This document shows, in pieces, positions 19,810-39,839 of a stretch of 56,330 nucleotides of DNA. The stretch comes from Bacteroidia bacterium (GTDB lineage Bacteria; Bacteroidota; Bacteroidia; DATLTG01): positions 1 to 56,330 of the forward strand of contig JBDTAC010000028.1 in the NCBI GenBank assembly GCA_039924845.1. Reading direction: 5' to 3'. Numbering within the stretch: the stretch's first letter is position 1; each line of letters opens with the position of its first letter. Below the pieces are notes generated by a model that did no database searches, was not told the DNA's origin, and was given only the letters and a program-made list of their open reading frames with translations. The translations under genes and the position numbers were made by a program.

Positions 19810-20721
19810 TTGTTGGCAGATAAGACATATCCGTTGGAAAAAGAAACAACTTTTACAAGCAAAATAGTTGATTACGCTCATTTTATGAAATTGCGTTTGG
19901 CTTCCTTGGTTGTTTTTTCAGCAGCTTTAGGATTTGTAATTGGGTGCCACGCCGCAGACATTCCGCTTAATTGGACAAATTTAGGTTTACTTATTCTTGG
20001 TGGATTTTTAGTAACAGGTTCTTCCAATGGTTTCAATCAAATTATCGAACGCGATTTAGATAAATTAATGGCACGCACGTCTAATCGCCCGCTGCCGCAA
20101 AACCGCATGAGTGTTACCGAAGCTGTTTGCATCGCCTCCATAATGGGAATTGCTGGGATTATTATTTTATGGGTTTATATGAATCCGATGAGCGGCATTT
20201 TGGGCGCATTGGCATTGATTTTATACACGGTAGTATATACGCCGATGAAACGCAAAACACCTTTTGCCGTTTTTGTTGGCGCCTTTCCGGGAGCTATTCC
20301 TCCAATGCTTGGTTACGTTGCAACAACAACAGGTTTCGGAGAAATAGGATTTTACGCATGGATACTTTTTTTCGTGCAATTTATGTGGCAATTCCCCCAT
20401 TTTTGGGCAATTGCCTGGGTATTGGACGACGATTATAAAAAGGCAGGCTTTTTAATGTTGCCTTCTGGCGGAAGAGATAAAAGCAGCGCGTTTCAGGTAT
20501 TGGTTTATACCTTATTTTTGTTGCCGATAAGTTTAACGCCTGTATTTTTTCGTCTCTCAGGAACTATTTCGGGAATTGTTATTTTAATTTGCGGAATTTT
20601 ATTTTTGTGGCAAGCGTATAATTTATACAAAGAATGCAGTGTAAAAGCAGCGAAACAATTAATGTTCGGATCGTTTGCCTATTTACCCTTAGTACAATTA
20701 GCAATTATGTTTGGAAAATAA
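19810..20721 (+). CDS. ctaB: Protoheme IX farnesyltransferase
   Basis: Polytopic UbiA-family prenyltransferase, 303 residues, converting heme b to heme o for heme-copper oxidases. The prenyl-diphosphate site is in NGFNQIIERDLDKLMARTSNRPLP (conserved N/DxxxD and the RTxxRPLP block), and FPHFWAIAW is a further family motif. It starts with TTG (19810 or 19813); the first in-frame ATG would remove the conserved start of helix 1. It heads the oxidase accessory cluster. The stop TAA lies inside a palindrome that ends at the next ATG. Confidence 0.92.
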   Translation: MLADKTYPLEKETTFTSKIVDYAHFMKLRLASLVVFSAALGFVIGCHAADIPLNWTNLGLLILGGFLVTGSSNGFNQIIERDLDKLMARTSNRPLPQNRMSVTEAVCIASIMGIAGIIILWVYMNPMSGILGALALILYTVVYTPMKRKTPFAVFVGAFPGAIPPMLGYVATTTGFGEIGFYAWILFFVQFMWQFPHFWAIAWVLDDDYKKAGFLMLPSGGRDKSSAFQVLVYTLFLLPISLTPVFFRLSGTISGIVILICGILFLWQAYNLYKECSVKAAKQLMFGSFAYLPLVQLAIMFGK

Positions 20722-20730: not shown

Positions 20731-21318
20731 ATGGAAGCTACACTACCTTTGGAAACAGAAGAAAAAGCATTAAAAGAAAAAGCAATGAAAGCCCTTATGT
20801 GGCTGGGTATTGTGAGTATTATCATGCTTTTTGCCGGACTCACCAGCGGTTACGTTATCCGCCAAATGAGTGGCAGTTGGTTGCATTTTGAATTACCAAG
20901 TTTATTTTGGCTAAGTACTGCTATTATTTTAACCAGCAGCGCCACCATGAATTGGGCAGTAATGGCCGCAAAACAAAATCAATTACAAAAATTAAAAATT
21001 GCCATTGGAATTACTTTTTTACTCGGTATCGCATTTACGTTTTCACAATTTGCAGCGTGGCATATTTTAATCGCCAACAATATATTTTTTACAGGCGTAA
21101 AAAGCAACGCCGCTGGTTCTTTTTTATATGTATTAACCGGATTGCATTTATTGCATTTAATTGGCGGACTTATCTGCCTAATTGTGGTGCTAACTAAATC
21201 TTTATTGAATAGATACAGTGCTGAAAATATGCTGGGTTTAAAGTTGTGTGCCATCTATTGGCATTTTTTAGATGCACTTTGGGTATATTTATTTCTGTTT
21301 TTGTATTTTATTCGTTAA
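20731..21318 (+). CDS. Cytochrome c oxidase subunit III-like protein (first of two)
   Basis: A 195-residue, five-helix member of the heme-copper oxidase subunit III family. Visible family features are the TSGYVIRQMSGSW loop, FTGVKSNAAGSFLYVLTGLHLLHLIGG with the conserved His cluster, and the C-terminal YWHFLDALWVYLFLFLYF. The short five-helix form is common in Bacteroidota and pairs with a longer paralogue, here the next gene. It is part of the ctaB cluster; subunits I and II are not in the window. Confidence 0.88.
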   Translation: MEATLPLETEEKALKEKAMKALMWLGIVSIIMLFAGLTSGYVIRQMSGSWLHFELPSLFWLSTAIILTSSATMNWAVMAAKQNQLQKLKIAIGITFLLGIAFTFSQFAAWHILIANNIFFTGVKSNAAGSFLYVLTGLHLLHLIGGLICLIVVLTKSLLNRYSAENMLGLKLCAIYWHFLDALWVYLFLFLYFIR

Positions 21319-21364: not shown

Positions 21365-22093
21365 ATGTCAAGCGAAGCAACAGTTCACAGTCATGAAAAG
21401 CCCTCTGGATGGGGCGGAGGCGTATCTCCATTAGGAGCAAGCTATGGAAAAATGTTTATGTGGTTTTTCCTCGTATCCGATGCCTTAACTTTTTCTGGAT
21501 TATTATGTGCGTACGGATTTATGCGCCATAAATATCCTGATGTATGGCCTATTCCGGGTAACGTATTTAACGAATTTCCATTTGTACATCATCCACTTCC
21601 ATTGGCGTATGTGGGTTTTATGACATTTGTCCTCATTATGAGTTCTGTTACCATGGTACTTGCCGTTGAAGCAGGACAACGACTTCAGAAAAAAGAAGTG
21701 ATGAAATGGATGTTTTTAACCATTATCGGTGGATTGATTTTCGTGGGCTCCCAAGCTTGGGAATGGTATCATTTTATTACTGGTCCTGAAAATGGTGTTA
21801 CGAAAACTGTTTTTGAAAACGGTGCTTGGCAAACCATTATGATACACGGCGCCAATTTGCATCACAATCAATACGGCTTACCCGTTTTTGCTGATTTCTT
21901 TTTCTTCATTACTGGATTCCACGGATTTCACGTTTTTAGTGGTGTTGTCATCAACACTATTATCTTCTTGAATGTTTGGAAAGGAAGATATGAAAAACGT
22001 GGACACTACGAAATGGTTGAAAAAGCTGGATTGTACTGGCATTTTGTGGATTTAGTTTGGGTATTTGTATTTACCTTCTTTTATCTGTTATAA
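21365..22093 (+). CDS. Cytochrome c oxidase subunit III (second of two)
   Basis: A 242-residue subunit III-family protein with about five to six helices. It has GKMFMWFFLVSDALTFSGLL near the start, HHNQYGLPVFADFFFFITGFHGFHVFSG with the subunit III His motif, and YWHFVDLVWVFVFTFFYLL at the end. It probably functions with the preceding paralogue in a caa3/alternative-complex-linked oxidase of the Bacteroidota type. A palindrome copy (22089-22109) overlaps the stop codon. Confidence 0.9.
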   Translation: MSSEATVHSHEKPSGWGGGVSPLGASYGKMFMWFFLVSDALTFSGLLCAYGFMRHKYPDVWPIPGNVFNEFPFVHHPLPLAYVGFMTFVLIMSSVTMVLAVEAGQRLQKKEVMKWMFLTIIGGLIFVGSQAWEWYHFITGPENGVTKTVFENGAWQTIMIHGANLHHNQYGLPVFADFFFFITGFHGFHVFSGVVINTIIFLNVWKGRYEKRGHYEMVEKAGLYWHFVDLVWVFVFTFFYLL

Positions 22094-22151: not shown

Positions 22152-22556
22152 ATGTCAGAATTTCACGATGATTTTCCAGAATACGAAAAACTTGCTCAAC
22201 ACTCCGAAGAAGAAGGTCAAATAATTAGAAAGACCTTATGGAAAGTATTTTGGGTATTGCTCGTTGTAACCATTATCGAGTTATCCGTAGGTATTTATAA
22301 CGAACATTTCAGCGACTTAGCACAGAAAATAATTTTCATTTTCTTCACTGTTTTTAAAGCCTATTACATCGTTTACAGTTTCATGCACTTAGGCCACGAA
22401 GTAACGCCAATGCGAAGAATAGTGCTTGTGCCGTACATGGTATTTATCTTGTATTTGATTACATTGATTATCATCGAAGGTTCTTATTGTATGAAACATC
22501 GTGAGCCGAGCGATAAAGCAAATCTGATAGAAAAAACAGCGGCTGTAAAAGAGTAA
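22152..22556 (+). CDS. Cytochrome c oxidase subunit IV family protein
   Basis: A 134-residue small membrane protein with three helices (about 31-49, 58-80, 91-110). It matches the prokaryotic subunit IV pattern, including FFTVFKAYYIVYSFMHLGHE. It is a structural accessory subunit of the oxidase. Fifteen bases separate it from the Sco-like gene. Confidence 0.88.
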   Translation: MSEFHDDFPEYEKLAQHSEEEGQIIRKTLWKVFWVLLVVTIIELSVGIYNEHFSDLAQKIIFIFFTVFKAYYIVYSFMHLGHEVTPMRRIVLVPYMVFILYLITLIIIEGSYCMKHREPSDKANLIEKTAAVKE

Positions 22557-22571
22557 ATAAAAATTTAAGTT

Positions 22572-23255
22572 TTGTCAAAAAAAGGACTTTTGATAGGCGG
22601 AATATTATTATTCCCACCCGTTTTATTCATCTTATTATCTACTGGAAAAACGAATTTTATTCGACTCGGTTATTTCGGGACAAAAACTCCTCATACAATT
22701 ACTATTAATGGAAAAGAAAAAACGGACACTGTTTATTACAGTGCTCCGCCTTTTAATGGCATCAATCAATTCGGAGATTCCGTTTCAGAAAAAAAATTTT
22801 TGGGTACCATTTATATCGCTGATTTTTTTTACACGAATGGAGGAAAAAACGAAACTGCTTTAGCTGCCGAAATGCAACGAGTTCAGGAACAATTTAAAGG
22901 CTACGATTCTATTTTATTTATTTCTTTTTCTATAGATCCTTTGCGAGACAGCGTTTCGGCGCTTTCTGCCTTTGCAAAAAAAGTGCATGCCAATACCAAA
23001 ACTTGGAGTTTTATTCGCGGTGATCAACAAAAAATGTACGCGCTTCAAAAAGATGGTTATTTACTTTCTGTAAAAGATTCCGATGGTTTTTCACTTAGCA
23101 ATAAATTGGTTTTAGTAGATAAAAGCAAACACATACGCGGTATTTATACAGGAACAAGCGTTACTGATGTAAATCGCTTAATTGACGAAACACACGTGTT
23201 AATTGATGAGTATTTTGTCCATCGAAAACCAAAAAAAAACGCACTCGATGACTGA
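22572..23255 (+). CDS. Sco1/SenC-family protein lacking copper ligands
   Basis: A 227-residue protein with an N-terminal membrane anchor and a thioredoxin-like Sco fold. The order of Sco blocks is intact (IADFFYT, FISFSIDPLRDS, WSFIRGDQQKMYAL, LVLVDKSKHIRGIYTGT), but where Sco has CPxxC this protein reads TNGGKNE (about residues 86-96). Where Sco has the metal His (HSxxxxLVDK) it reads SLSNKLVLVDK. All three copper ligands are therefore absent, although the reading frame is intact and the gene sits in the oxidase cluster. Starts at TTG. A non-metal chaperone, redox-independent scaffold or decaying copy is possible. Confidence 0.82.
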   Translation: MSKKGLLIGGILLFPPVLFILLSTGKTNFIRLGYFGTKTPHTITINGKEKTDTVYYSAPPFNGINQFGDSVSEKKFLGTIYIADFFYTNGGKNETALAAEMQRVQEQFKGYDSILFISFSIDPLRDSVSALSAFAKKVHANTKTWSFIRGDQQKMYALQKDGYLLSVKDSDGFSLSNKLVLVDKSKHIRGIYTGTSVTDVNRLIDETHVLIDEYFVHRKPKKNALDD

Positions 23256-23814
23256 TAAAAAAATTTTACGATTCATTTACGTCATTTCTGCAGTCGTTTT
23301 TTTATTAGTAGCTATTTTATTCGCCTTACCAAAAGCCAATCACATTCCAGAATGGATAAAAATTTTACCGAAATTAAATGCTTGCCTCAACGGAACTTGT
23401 TTCGTGCTTTTATTATTTTCCCTCTATTTTATCAAACAAGGAAAAATACACATTCACAAAGTAATTAATTTAACTGCTTTTTCACTTTCTGTGCTGTTTT
23501 TGCTTTCCTACGTTTTGTTCCATTCATTTGGTGTGGAAACGCGCTACGGAGATCTCAATCACGATGGTATTTTGGATGCAGCAGAAATGCTTCAAGCCGG
23601 AAATATTCGCTACGTTTATTATGTGATTTTAATTACACATATTTTGTTGGCAGCAGTTGTGCTTCCTTTGGTATTAATTTCTTTTTTCAGAGGACTGAGC
23701 AATCAAATTCCGCAACATAAAAAAATTGTGCGCTGGAGCTATCCCATTTGGCTGTATGTAACCTTTTCCGGCGTAATTGTTTACCTCATGATTTCTCCTT
23801 ATTATAGTTTTTAA
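23248..23814 (+). CDS. DUF420 membrane protein with an EF-hand-like loop
   Basis: A 188-residue protein with about five membrane helices, of the DUF420 family found in oxidase clusters (related to CtaM-like oxidase assembly proteins). I chose ATG 23248, which overlaps the Sco-like stop by 8 bp and implies translational coupling; the longer frame from 23203 adds an unrelated stretch. Between helices lies DLNHDGILDAAE (residues 102-113), a full 12-position EF-hand calcium loop (D-x-N-x-D-G-x-x-D-x-x-E), in a loop likely to face the periplasm. Last gene of the cluster. Confidence 0.8.
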   Translation: MTDKKILRFIYVISAVVFLLVAILFALPKANHIPEWIKILPKLNACLNGTCFVLLLFSLYFIKQGKIHIHKVINLTAFSLSVLFLLSYVLFHSFGVETRYGDLNHDGILDAAEMLQAGNIRYVYYVILITHILLAAVVLPLVLISFFRGLSNQIPQHKKIVRWSYPIWLYVTFSGVIVYLMISPYYSF

Positions 23815-23831
23815 GAAGTGAACTATTTTCT

Positions 23832-23855
23832 CTTCAAAAGATTATTTTTTTGAAA
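23832..23855. repeat. AT-rich palindrome copy after the DUF420 gene
   Basis: CTTC, A-tract, GATTA, T-tract, GAAAG. Slightly degenerate, 13 bp before the long palindrome. Confidence 0.6.
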
Positions 23856-23868
23856 GTGGATTTTCCTA

Positions 23869-23912
23869 AAAAAAAGAGGTTCGAAAAATTAATTTTTCGA
23901 ACCTCTTTTTTT
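23869..23912. terminator. 44-bp perfect palindrome, bidirectional terminator
   Basis: Every base pairs symmetrically about 23890/23891. The outer arm is seven A plus GAGG against CCTC plus seven T, and the inner part is a copy of the recurrent palindrome (TTCGAAAAATT with its mirror). It sits between the convergent DUF420 (+) and M42 peptidase (-) genes, with U-tracts usable in both directions. Confidence 0.9.
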
Positions 23913-23932
23913 CGACATAAAAACTTATGTAA

Positions 23933-25036
23933 CTATTTCAGATAATTAAAATCGTGGTTCTTTTTAATATTTTGCAAGGTCTGAAAAATAAGTTTTATCA
24001 CATTTTCCACATCGTCTTTATGAACGCTTTCAACAGTGGTGTGCATATAACGCAAAGGCAATGAAATCAATGCAGAAGCAACGCCCCCAATAGAATATGC
24101 AAATGCATCGGTATCCGTTCCGGTTGCTCTGGAAGCAGCTGCGCGCTGAAACGGAATTTTATTTTTCTGCGCAGTATCAATTATCAATTTCAATAAATTA
24201 TTTTGAACAGCCGGTCCGTAAGTTAAAACGGGTCCTTTGCCGCAATGTAAATCTCCACTTGCAATTTTATTCAACATCGGAGTTTGTGTATCATGACACA
24301 CATCTGTAACAATCGCCACGTTCGGTTTGATACGTTGTGTAATCATTTCGGCACCACGCAAACCAACTTCTTCTTGAACAGAATTAGAAATATACAATCC
24401 GAAAGGCAATTTTGTTTTTGTTTCGTGCAGCATACGCGCTACTTCTGCAATCATAAAACCGCCCATGCGGTTATCCAATGCACGACCCACATAATAGCGA
24501 TCGTTCAATACCATAAAAGTATCTTCGTACGTAATTACACAACCCACGTGAACGCCCAATGCTTCCACTTCTTTATCGGTGATACAACCGCAATCTAAAA
24601 AAATATTTTTTAAAGTTGGAGCTTCTTCTTTTGAGGCATCGCGTGTGTGGATAGCGGGCCAACCGAAAACTGCTTTCACGATTCCTTTATCTGTATGGAT
24701 ATTTACACGTTTCGAAGGCGCAATTTGATGATCGGAACCACCGTTTCTGCGTACATAAATAAAACCATCTTTGGTGATGTAATGTACAAACCAAGAAATT
24801 TCATCGGCATGCGCTTCAATCACCACTTTGTATTCCGCTTTCGGATTAATAACACCTACAGCCGTTCCGTAAGTATCTACAAAATGTTCATCTATATAAG
24901 GCGAAATATAATTCAACCAAATTTTTTGTCCTTCCGCTTCAAAGCCTGTAGGAGAAGCATTGTTCAAGTATTTTTCTAAAAAAGTATGCGATTTTGCATT
25001 CAAGATAGAACTTGATTTTGTCGTTTTCTTTGCCAT
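23933..25036 (-). CDS. M42 family metallo-aminopeptidase
   Basis: A 367-residue di-metal aminopeptidase of the TET/glutamyl-aminopeptidase type. Metal ligands are visible: H and D in IEAHADEISWFV, D in GRALDNRMGG, the catalytic and ligand Glu pair in VQEEVGLRGA, D in VTDVCHD, and the C-terminal His in PLRYMHTTVE. It probably forms a large cytoplasmic oligomer that trims peptides. Monocistronic, ending at the long palindromic terminator. Confidence 0.93.
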   Translation of the reverse strand: MAKKTTKSSSILNAKSHTFLEKYLNNASPTGFEAEGQKIWLNYISPYIDEHFVDTYGTAVGVINPKAEYKVVIEAHADEISWFVHYITKDGFIYVRRNGGSDHQIAPSKRVNIHTDKGIVKAVFGWPAIHTRDASKEEAPTLKNIFLDCGCITDKEVEALGVHVGCVITYEDTFMVLNDRYYVGRALDNRMGGFMIAEVARMLHETKTKLPFGLYISNSVQEEVGLRGAEMITQRIKPNVAIVTDVCHDTQTPMLNKIASGDLHCGKGPVLTYGPAVQNNLLKLIIDTAQKNKIPFQRAAASRATGTDTDAFAYSIGGVASALISLPLRYMHTTVESVHKDDVENVIKLIFQTLQNIKKNHDFNYLK

Positions 25037-36334: not shown

Positions 36335-37597
36335 ATGATGTCAAAAATTACAACCCTGCTCTTGTTTTTAATCTTTAGCACTCAACTGAAGGCGCAAGTT
36401 TTTTGGACGGAAACTTTTAATAACAGTTGTACAGCTGGTTGTGATGTTAGTTTTTATGCTGGTACAAATGGCGCATGGACAGATAATACTTCATTAGGTG
36501 CAAATGCAGCACAAGCCAATCGTTGGTATGTAAGTTGTGCTGAAAATGGGCATACTGCGGGAGTATGTGGCACGGGCTGCAAACCTGCCAGTGCCACGGC
36601 AACACTTGCCAGTTTGCATATTGGCGCCCATGATGGTTTTGTATTAGACGCAGGAGCTTCTTACGATGCAGGAGGATTGTGTGGCTTGGGCATTTGTGTT
36701 AAAACAGATAAGCGAGCGGAATCACCCACCATTAATTGTACAGGATTAACAGGCATTACACTCGCTTTTGATTACATAGAAAATGGACAAGCCGGTTCCG
36801 ATTATGCAACCGTTTGGTATTATGACGGAACTACTTGGACACAAATTGCTACTCCTGCACAAACAGTAGTTTGCGGAAGTGGACAAGGACAATGGACAGC
36901 TTATTCAATTGCTTTACCAGCAAGTGCCAACAATAATGCAAATGTAAAAATTGGTTTCCGTTGGGTAAACAATGATGATGGTTTAGGTACCGACCCTTCT
37001 GTTGCGATAGACAATGTAACCTTAAGTGCAGCCAAAGGGCTTCCCATTAATTTAATAGATTTCACAGGTAATTGTGTGGATAATACCGTTACACTTAATT
37101 GGAGTACCGCCAGCGAAACCAATAATAATTATTTCAGCATTGAACGTACAACAGATGGCGCAACTTGGCAATTGGCAGGGAAAATAAGAGGAGCAGGCAA
37201 CATTACCGAAATAAAAAATTACACATTTACAGAAATAAATCCCGCATCGAACGCTCCTCTCTATTATCGGCTTAGCCAAACCGATTTTGACGGAGATTCG
37301 CGTTCTTTTAACGAAATAAATATTACGTGTACCGGCACTGATGAAAAAAATATTTCCATTTATCCGAATCCTACTTCAGGAAGTTTTAATTTAGAATTTG
37401 CGAATGGGATGGAAAAAACGGTTCAGAACATAAATGTTTATACTGTTTTAGGACAAATTATTTTTCATCAAGCTGTTGCCGATAAAAACATTCAGGAACT
37501 TCAAACAATAGATTTATCAACTTACTCTCAAGGAATTTATTTCTTAGAAATTCGAACCTTGAGCGGAATCATTACAAAAAAAATCATTATAAATTAG
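36335..37597 (+). CDS. Secreted protein with type IX (type A) sorting domain
   Basis: A 420-residue protein. Signal peptide MSKITTLLLFLIFSTQLKAQ; ectodomain of about 220 residues beginning VFWTETFNNSC, rich in Cys pairs and jelly-roll/MAM-like; a linker domain (LTGNCVDNTVTLNWSTASE), and a C-terminal type A sorting domain starting ISIYPNPTSGSFNLEF and ending ITKKIIIN. It is expected to be exported by the type IX system and released or anchored by the sortase. The ectodomain is paralogous to that of the next gene. Two ATGs are adjacent (36335, 36338). Confidence 0.85.
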   Translation: MMSKITTLLLFLIFSTQLKAQVFWTETFNNSCTAGCDVSFYAGTNGAWTDNTSLGANAAQANRWYVSCAENGHTAGVCGTGCKPASATATLASLHIGAHDGFVLDAGASYDAGGLCGLGICVKTDKRAESPTINCTGLTGITLAFDYIENGQAGSDYATVWYYDGTTWTQIATPAQTVVCGSGQGQWTAYSIALPASANNNANVKIGFRWVNNDDGLGTDPSVAIDNVTLSAAKGLPINLIDFTGNCVDNTVTLNWSTASETNNNYFSIERTTDGATWQLAGKIRGAGNITEIKNYTFTEINPASNAPLYYRLSQTDFDGDSRSFNEINITCTGTDEKNISIYPNPTSGSFNLEFANGMEKTVQNINVYTVLGQIIFHQAVADKNIQELQTIDLSTYSQGIYFLEIRTLSGIITKKIIIN

Positions 37598-37700
37598 AGT
37601 TGGCAATCTTTGAAAGCTATAAAAATATTTTTCCTAAATAGAAATTGCTTCGTATCTAAATATTTCCTATTATTGCGAGGTCATTAACCTAACAAAAAGT

Positions 37701-39839
37701 ATGAGAAAATATACATTCTCTTTTTCGCGGACATTTTTTTTATCTACGTTGTTTTTTTTGATAATTGGAAACACTTCATTTGCCCAAGTTTTTTGGACAG
37801 AAGATTATACCTCTGCGTGTGTAAGTCTTTGCACCCTACCTTTTACTAGCCCAAATGGAACATGGACAATGGTTTCAACTGGCACCAATGGAACTTCGGC
37901 AAATACGTGGTTTGTAAGTGAAACAGAATCAGGATTAGGAAGAGGTGCTTGTGGAACCAGCGGAAGTGATGCCTCGCTTCACATCGCAAATGTTAGTACT
38001 TCTCCAGCAGCCTCTCTTTTTTGCCCAACAGGAGATTGTGGTGCAGCGTACGACGCTGGAGATGGAGCTACGATTGTTTCCAATCAACGAGCTACTTCTC
38101 CAGTAATTAATTGCACTGGAAAAACCAACATAACCTTAGCATTTAATTATATGATGGGAGGATTTGCTGGAAGCGATTATGCATCCGTTTGTTACTTTAA
38201 TGGAGCAACTTGGACGACACTTGTAAGTCCTCCAATAACTGCATTGTGTGGAGTACAAGGAAAATGGACTTATTATTCAGTTGCCTTACCTGCAAGTGCT
38301 AATAACAACCCAAGTGTTCAAATCGGATTCAATTGGCAAAACACCGCTACGGCAGCTGGTGTTGATCCTTCCGTTGCCATAGATAGTGTTACGCTAAGTT
38401 CTACAGCTATCCCAGTTGCTAATTTTTCAGGTACGCCTTTAACTATTTGTGCGGGACAAAGTGTTTCATTTACAGATTTATCTACTAACTCTCCAACCAG
38501 TTGGAGCTGGACTTTTGCCGGGGGAACTCCCAACTCGTCCACCTTACAAAACCCTGTAGTTGTTTACAATACGCCTGGCACATACAATGTAAGCCTCACT
38601 GCCACAAACGGAAGTGGATCAAATACGCTTACAAAAACAGGTTATGTAATTGTAAATGCCAGTCCGACAGCAGTTATAACTCCTTCAAGTGCTACTATAT
38701 GCAGCGGTAAAACCATTACACTAACTGCCTCCGGAGGATCTGCTTATACTTGGAGTACTGGTGCTTCTACTGCAGTTATTACAGTAAGTCCGACAACTAC
38801 CACAACCTATTCCGTTGCTGTATCTAATGGAACTTGTTTTAGTACAACAAGTGCAACCGTTACCGTTAATCCATCTCCTGTAGGAACCGTTACCGGTGAT
38901 ACTTCTATCTGCCAAGGAGCTATTACTACACTAATAGCAAGTGGAGGCACAAATTATATTTGGAATACAGGAGCTACTACACCTTCCATTAATGTAACAC
39001 CTTTTACCACTACTAATTACTGGGTGCTTATTTCCAATGGTTCTTGCTATGATTCCATCAATACAAAGATAAGCGTATATCCTATTCCTGTTCCTACTGT
39101 GAGTTCCAATACTGTTTCCTGCTCAGGCGCACCAGTACAACTGACAGCAGGTGGTGGTACAACCTATTCATGGAGTCCGGCAGCGGGATTGAGTAGTACT
39201 ACTATTGCTAATCCAATAGCAACCCCAGCAACCACCACTATTTATACCGTTACTGTTTCCAACGGAAATTGTTTTGTAAAAGATTCTGTAACCGTAAAAT
39301 CAGAACCTGCACCTTTTGTAGAAGTTGGAATTGTAGGCGAGAAAGCGGGGGTAGAAGATACCACCATCAATATTGGTGAAACGGTACAATTGATTGCCAC
39401 GGGTGGTGTTAATTTTTTATGGACACCTTCTGCTGGATTAGATTGCAACACGTGTCAAAACCCGAAAGCAAACCCTATGGCAAGCACATTTTATGTTGCT
39501 ATGATTTCTGATTCAAATGGTTGTACTGCCTTCGATACCATATTAGTAAAAGTAGATGTAAATTGTGGACAACTATTTGTTCCCAACGCTTTTTCGCCAA
39601 ATGGAGATGGAGAAAACGACGTGTTGTACGTGCGTGGCAATTGTTTGCTTAGCATGGATTTTTTAATTTTCGACCGATGGGGAGAAAAAGTTTTTGAAAG
39701 TACCGATCCAAGAATTGGTTGGGATGGCACTTACAAAGGAAAGCCAATGAACACAGCTGTTTTTTCATATTATGTAAAAGCAACTTTGGTCAATTATAAA
39801 ATTGTGGAACAGCGCGGAAACGTGGCTTTGCTGAGGTAA
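37701..39839 (+). CDS. Secreted PKD/Ig-repeat protein with gliding-type (type B) sorting domain
   Basis: A 712-residue surface protein. Signal peptide, ectodomain starting VFWTEDYTSAC (paralogous to the preceding gene), a PKD domain (about 235-320, SFTDLSTNSPTSWSWTF), four Ig-like Thr/Ser-rich repeats each with a core such as ITLTASGGSAYTWSTGAST, then the gliding-motility-associated C-terminal domain (VPNAFSPNGDGENDVLYV, FDRWGEKVFES, ending VALLR). Likely an adhesin or matrix protein exported by the type IX system. The repeats encode many Thr/Ser, Asn and Gly. Confidence 0.88.
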   Translation: MRKYTFSFSRTFFLSTLFFLIIGNTSFAQVFWTEDYTSACVSLCTLPFTSPNGTWTMVSTGTNGTSANTWFVSETESGLGRGACGTSGSDASLHIANVSTSPAASLFCPTGDCGAAYDAGDGATIVSNQRATSPVINCTGKTNITLAFNYMMGGFAGSDYASVCYFNGATWTTLVSPPITALCGVQGKWTYYSVALPASANNNPSVQIGFNWQNTATAAGVDPSVAIDSVTLSSTAIPVANFSGTPLTICAGQSVSFTDLSTNSPTSWSWTFAGGTPNSSTLQNPVVVYNTPGTYNVSLTATNGSGSNTLTKTGYVIVNASPTAVITPSSATICSGKTITLTASGGSAYTWSTGASTAVITVSPTTTTTYSVAVSNGTCFSTTSATVTVNPSPVGTVTGDTSICQGAITTLIASGGTNYIWNTGATTPSINVTPFTTTNYWVLISNGSCYDSINTKISVYPIPVPTVSSNTVSCSGAPVQLTAGGGTTYSWSPAAGLSSTTIANPIATPATTTIYTVTVSNGNCFVKDSVTVKSEPAPFVEVGIVGEKAGVEDTTINIGETVQLIATGGVNFLWTPSAGLDCNTCQNPKANPMASTFYVAMISDSNGCTAFDTILVKVDVNCGQLFVPNAFSPNGDGENDVLYVRGNCLLSMDFLIFDRWGEKVFESTDPRIGWDGTYKGKPMNTAVFSYYVKATLVNYKIVEQRGNVALLR

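Follow-up and report, generated by a model that had tools for sequence, protein, structure and literature searches.

A Sco-family protein without copper ligands in a Bacteroidia oxidase operon and its counterparts across the class

Known Sco systems and the oxidase operon of the window

The literature presents bacterial Sco as a copper protein with the signature CXXXCXnH (PMC9145763), and human and yeast Sco1-Sco2, as well as Paracoccus ScoA/ScoB, are cases in which two paralogs of one genome divide their roles or overlap in them (PMC9145763). Arabidopsis HCC2 has lost all three ligands and is encoded alongside a canonical paralog, HCC1; oxidase activity does not require it, and it gives a yeast sco2 sod1 double mutant back part of its tolerance to oxidative stress (PMC3971200, PMC6307045, PMC6696091). 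A review called its complementation of other Sco proteins "very surprising" and left a non-copper role open (PMC6696091). Our search of the open-access literature, with subscription journals outside its range, recovered no description of a ligand-free bacterial Sco.

We analyzed a 56,330-nucleotide stretch from a Bacteroidia bacterium (GenBank assembly GCA_039924845.1, contig JBDTAC010000028.1; here, the window), in which a gene with a TTG start (22572..23255, + strand) encodes a 227-aa ligand-free member of the Sco/SenC family (a pseudo-Sco), as judged from PF02630, AlphaFold2/Foldseek, and alignments. It resembles canonical Sco1/SenC proteins (e.g., Bacillus subtilis YpmQ/BsSco; PDB code 1xzo; PF02630) in fold and in type of gene neighborhood, but differs from them in having no CxxxC motif, no metal His, and no Cys of any kind. 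The genome (2.66 Mb; 99% complete; a draft of 101 contigs) is comparable to the Sco1-Sco2 and ScoA/ScoB systems in that Sco paralogs occur together in it; both members of those pairs retain the copper ligands, unlike the window Sco. With HCC2 the window protein shares the absence of all three ligands and the presence of a canonical paralog in the same genome (L001; see below). HCC2 is plant mitochondrial and dispensable for COX activity, whereas the bacterial ligand-free genes are tied to oxidase operons, derive from several separate losses, and in one family stand in tandem with the canonical Sco. By analogy, the window protein would work most like HCC2, probably by separate descent; our trees contain no plant sequence, and a common origin of the ligand-free state in HCC2 and Bacteroidia is unlikely in view of at least six separate losses within Bacteroidia.

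The gene belongs to an intact series on the + strand in the order cyoE-COX3-COX3-COX4-Sco-DUF420. This comprises heme o synthase (cyoE/ctaB; 19810..20721; TIGR01473, 8.4e-77), two COX3-type oxidase subunits (20731..21318; PF00510, 1.8e-17; and 21365..22093; PF00510, 7e-13), cytochrome c oxidase subunit IV (COX4_pro; 22152..22556; PF03626, 1.7e-12), the pseudo-Sco, and a DUF420 (CtaM-type) membrane protein (23248..23814; PF04238, 1.8e-41). The DUF420 ATG at 23248 overlaps the Sco stop codon (23253-23255) by 8 nt; a longer DUF420 ORF from 23203 is a mechanical call, and the start was taken as this ATG. An earlier note on this DNA had placed the Sco gene in an oxidase cluster, which is present as far as these genes go, with CoxB and CoxA encoded on a separate contig (C42). 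DUF420 (CtaM), an oxidase-assembly factor in Bacillus and Staphylococcus (PMC9145763), is an unrelated membrane protein downstream of Sco that has only its context in common with it.

In relatives from families f20 and f30 (loci L013, L016, and L009), a small membrane protein with a QCAMC-like motif directly follows DUF420; no QCAMC-type gene is present at 23815-23932 of the window, and the next gene, on the opposite strand, starts at 23933. At three loci of genus g20 (L013, L019, and L039), a ligand-eroded Sco, DUF420, and the small QCAMC protein adjoin a GldJ/GldK-like lipoprotein gene at a site devoid of COX genes, so these genes for oxidase assembly may travel together.

The lost copper site and the retained fold

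PF02630 (SCO1-SenC) matches residues 59-169 of the window protein (4.2e-13; 49.9 bits, cutoff 22.8), the match ending at profile position 109 of 134, and a sequence search of solved structures recovered the Sco proteins 4hde, 1xzo, and 1on4 at ~5e-11. An AlphaFold2 model, computed from an alignment with 27 relatives from public genomes, has a mean pLDDT of 82.7 and a pTM of 0.74, and its top Foldseek matches are all Sco proteins (4hde, 1xzo, 6n5u, and 1on4), with target-normalized TM-scores of 0.83 to 4hde and 0.78 to 1xzo. The Sco fold that the earlier note had read from the sequence is thus also what structure prediction returns. Alignment to relatives places the two Cys columns of CxxxC at G90 and E94 (FYTNGGKNETAL), such that the former motif now reads G90-G-K-N-E94 (22839..22853), and the metal-His column at L175 (GFSLSNKLVLVDK; codon 23094..23096). 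The claims that CPxxC had given way to TNGGKNE and that the metal-His block was gone therefore both hold at the level of aligned columns. Without CxxxC, the metal His, or any Cys, neither copper binding nor thiol-disulfide exchange is possible by the known mechanism. Given its profile and fold matches on the one hand and the missing ligands on the other, the protein is a homologous member of the Sco family, yet by the defining ligands it is not a Sco copper chaperone.

The reading frame is intact, as had been stated, with 227 codons and no internal stop. We looked for a hidden CxxxC in the other two frames across the site and found none, and relatives align in one and the same frame on either side of it; on these two grounds a local frameshift concealing the motif was rejected. 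That the canonical motif is masked by an assembly or sequencing error, for which the draft state of the 101-contig assembly could be cited, is extremely improbable: the error would need to have struck at two distinct sites, CxxxC is absent from every frame, and other genomes, assembled independently, also have a ligand-free Sco in this slot. Chance is excluded by the ligand-free Sco proteins in the same operon slot of five other families.

To describe what is retained, we took the 42 columns that at least 85% of canonical operon Sco proteins conserve. Of these, 39 are non-ligand positions, and the window protein keeps 32 of the 39. Their distribution is uneven, with 4/4 kept in the transmembrane/juxtamembrane region, 11/11 in the C-terminal region (LVDK..IRG.Y.GT), and 0/4 around CxxxC. 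The N terminus carries a single predicted membrane anchor, a hydrophobic model helix of 22 residues (residues 3-24; 22578..22643) whose conserved columns are kept in ligand-free copies, and there is no lipobox Cys. It is followed by a juxtamembrane segment, GKTNFIRLGYFG (residues 25-36; 22644..22679), common to canonical and ligand-free operon Sco proteins, the divergent family f28 included (retention in the alignment, 1.00 in the window and 0.95 in f28). The conserved C-terminal segment, in which all 11 of the conserved columns are kept, is VLVDKSKHIRGIYTGT (residues 180-195; 23109..23156). In the far more divergent ligand-free copies of f28, retention is 0.95 for the anchor/juxtamembrane columns, 0.73 for the C-terminal columns, and 0.02-0.25 for those in the center. 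As read from the alignments, this is the pattern expected if selection acts on membrane anchoring and binding surfaces but not on copper chemistry.

The prominence of the anchor and juxtamembrane segment, the best-kept parts even in f28, together with the constancy of a slot beside structural subunits in many families, could also be taken to mean that the protein has joined the mature aa3 oxidase, or the supercomplex of this oxidase with alternative complex III, as an accessory subunit and is not a transient assembly factor. We regard this as unlikely, since the search of solved structures gave Sco proteins and no chain of a respiratory complex, canonical occupants of the slot presumably act transiently, as copper chaperones, and the neighboring DUF420 has an assembly role in both Bacillus and Staphylococcus (PMC9145763).

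Recurrent ligand loss and its maintenance in relatives

Relatives were gathered from a class-wide draw of 395 genomes plus follow-up stretches. A scan of genome contigs with the single window sequence recovered no relative, an alignment query being needed, and searches at the family and order levels returned the window genome alone (the order consists of one genome). Ligand-free relatives, for which the earlier note had proposed a survey, were found across the class: ligand-free or eroded Sco proteins occur in oxidase operons of families f20, f13, f27, f45, and f28, and genus g20 (f20) displays graded erosion, from C-x4-C plus His through one Cys to none. Our comparison set holds 190 distinct related Sco proteins, nearly all from the class Bacteroidia, and is enriched for affected families. 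The copper site is missing or altered in 32/190; in 30 of these, one or more ligands are absent from the aligned columns or the normal site is gone, and the other two (L032 and L055) keep the Cys residues and the His with C-x4-C spacing. When operon copies are defined by adjoining COX4, COX3, or DUF420 genes, altered sites are found in 32/133 operon copies versus 0/57 stand-alone copies (Fisher's test, 4e-6, a value that ignores relatedness and comes from the enriched set). The loci of the class draw alone, which are best matches to the window protein, have ligand loss in 9/78 operon versus 0/11 stand-alone copies. Some weak PF02630 matches (L213, L219, and L220) were rejected; they are encoded outside the operon and represent different thioredoxin-like or Sco-like proteins.

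Trees were built with the motif columns removed. In a careful tree of 47 rows, from which f28 was left out, the well-supported branches cannot be explained with fewer than six separate changes; in a quick tree of all 190 rows, parsimony gives seven changes, with well-supported branches alone forcing three. A single loss common to the window and f45 is compatible with the sequences (AU P = 0.47), and the two may therefore go back to one event. Most stand-alone copies, L001 of the window genome among them, group away from the operon copies, from which it follows that the paralog is old.

Ligand-free copies in relatives are kept by purifying selection, like canonical ones: pairs of ligand-free genes have Nei-Gojobori dN/dS values of 0.06-0.21 (e.g., G027/G357, 0.10; G273/G249, 0.06; G012/G093, 0.09; G197/G337, 0.09; g20 pairs, 0.06-0.10) against 0.02-0.29 in canonical Sco controls, the figures with dS > 1 being approximate. 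The window gene is presumably under selection as well. In family f28, a ligand-free Sco with a membrane anchor follows COX4, in the slot of the window gene, in 14/16 genomes, and at 12 of these 14 loci a canonical lipoprotein Sco and then DUF420 lie directly downstream; at the other two (L237 and L238), no tandem canonical Sco was recognized within the stretch examined. The tandem canonical copies cluster in the tree with stand-alone lipoprotein copies. In family f45, the ligand-free copy is present in 8/11 genomes, including 3/3 of those with at least 90% completeness.

These data bear on the possibility that selection was relaxed once a second Sco took over, the gene now decaying after a loss that is recent or tolerated by the operon. 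The graded erosion in g20 would fit such a course, as would the recurrence of loss mostly where a second Sco exists. We nevertheless consider decay improbable, because the frame is intact, conserved residues outside the copper site are kept, relatives have low dN/dS values, and the ligand-free gene persists throughout the genera of f28 and is present in each of the three near-complete genomes of f45. The argument against simple decay that had been drawn from the window alone is in this way strengthened by purifying selection on its relatives.

Two observations accompany this survey. The tandem pairs of f28 (loci L229-L242; e.g., L229:881-2235, reading ligand-free Sco, canonical lipoprotein Sco, and then DUF420) have at the former CxxxC site of the ligand-free copy a common new motif, approximately (I/L/V)P(D/K/N)(E/Q), with a helix after it. 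Exceptions to the pairing with a second Sco, which count against the reading favored below, are several ligand-poor genomes in which none could be seen, namely, G409 and G408 (both 96% complete but in fragments; in G409 two Cys and a His remain, at altered spacing), G093 (88% complete), and G304 and G282 (both ~60% complete).

The second Sco and a proposed copper-independent role

Two further Sco proteins are encoded in the window genome. L001 (contig C74), 39% identical to the window Sco, is canonical, with CQGQC (C-x3-C) and the His in FLHPKE, and is the second canonical Sco whose existence elsewhere in the genome had been predicted; L002 (contig C10) carries CTYAC and a His and is encoded in the vicinity of a c-type cytochrome. 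CoxB (contig C42) retains CNKVCGASHYNM and the CuA His region. With these ligands kept and L001 present, the CuA site still needs metallation and a canonical Sco is available for it; presumably, L001 serves this oxidase. Two other explanations of ligand loss were rejected: loss of the CuA site, as CoxB ligands are kept in 12/12 genomes checked, and replacement of Sco by PCuAC, as PF04314 had no match in 13 genomes of the class, the window genome included, with or without ligand loss, so that replacement does not explain the pattern.

Recurrent loss under selection, usually with an intact copper-binding copy, suggests an oxidase-assembly job that needs no copper. On balance, we favor the reading that the window protein is a maintained pseudo-Sco, i.e., a membrane-anchored assembly factor with a Sco fold for the aa3 oxidase that neither binds copper nor performs thiol redox chemistry, both being left to a second Sco. 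Having dropped these activities, it would stay on as an assembly factor whose anchor, juxtamembrane, and C-terminal segments still dock on an oxidase subunit or a partner Sco; once docked, it might hold apo-CoxB or the partner Sco in place while the second Sco (of the L001 type) transfers copper and reduces thiols. The earlier note's overall reading is partly supported: the canonical second Sco, the ligand-free relatives, and the predicted Sco fold are as it proposed, and purifying selection on relatives speaks against decay; the scaffold or chaperone role, in docking or assembly, is one that we still infer. The recurrence of the loss, its restriction to operon copies, and the f28 tandem go beyond what that note could see. 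As a wider and more tentative proposal, possible but somewhat short of probable, Bacteroidia may have repeatedly split Sco between an operon copy that became a copper-free, anchored docking protein needed in oxidase assembly and a second Sco that took on the copper and thiol chemistry, the f28 pair acting on nascent CoxB.

The likeness to HCC2 raises another option, namely, that the protein defends against redox or copper stress without thiols of its own, as proposed for HCC2, with oxidase assembly independent of it. HCC2 offers the precedent, being ligand-free, dispensable for the oxidase, and able to rescue in part the stress tolerance of yeast sco2 sod1 (PMC3971200, PMC6307045, PMC6696091). 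Against this, the slot with oxidase subunits is kept across families, and no sequence feature of the Cys-free window protein points to stress, so we rate this option as quite unlikely. If a maintained, copper-independent assembly role is true, a Sco gene inside an oxidase operon is no proof of a copper chaperone, and the question of a non-copper function of HCC2 gains a bacterial system with natural replicates, in which selected ligand loss is recurrent, always in an oxidase operon, and in f28 encoded beside a canonical Sco.

The third Sco of the genome, L002, is distant from the others and follows genes for a c-type cytochrome and a formylglycine-generating-type protein, a neighborhood that may suggest a role linked to nitrite reductase. 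Elsewhere in the window (36335-39839), two similar secreted proteins are encoded next to each other. PKD-like repeats occur in the second, and both have C-terminal sorting-type ends; judged by sequence, they are probably cargo of type IX secretion.
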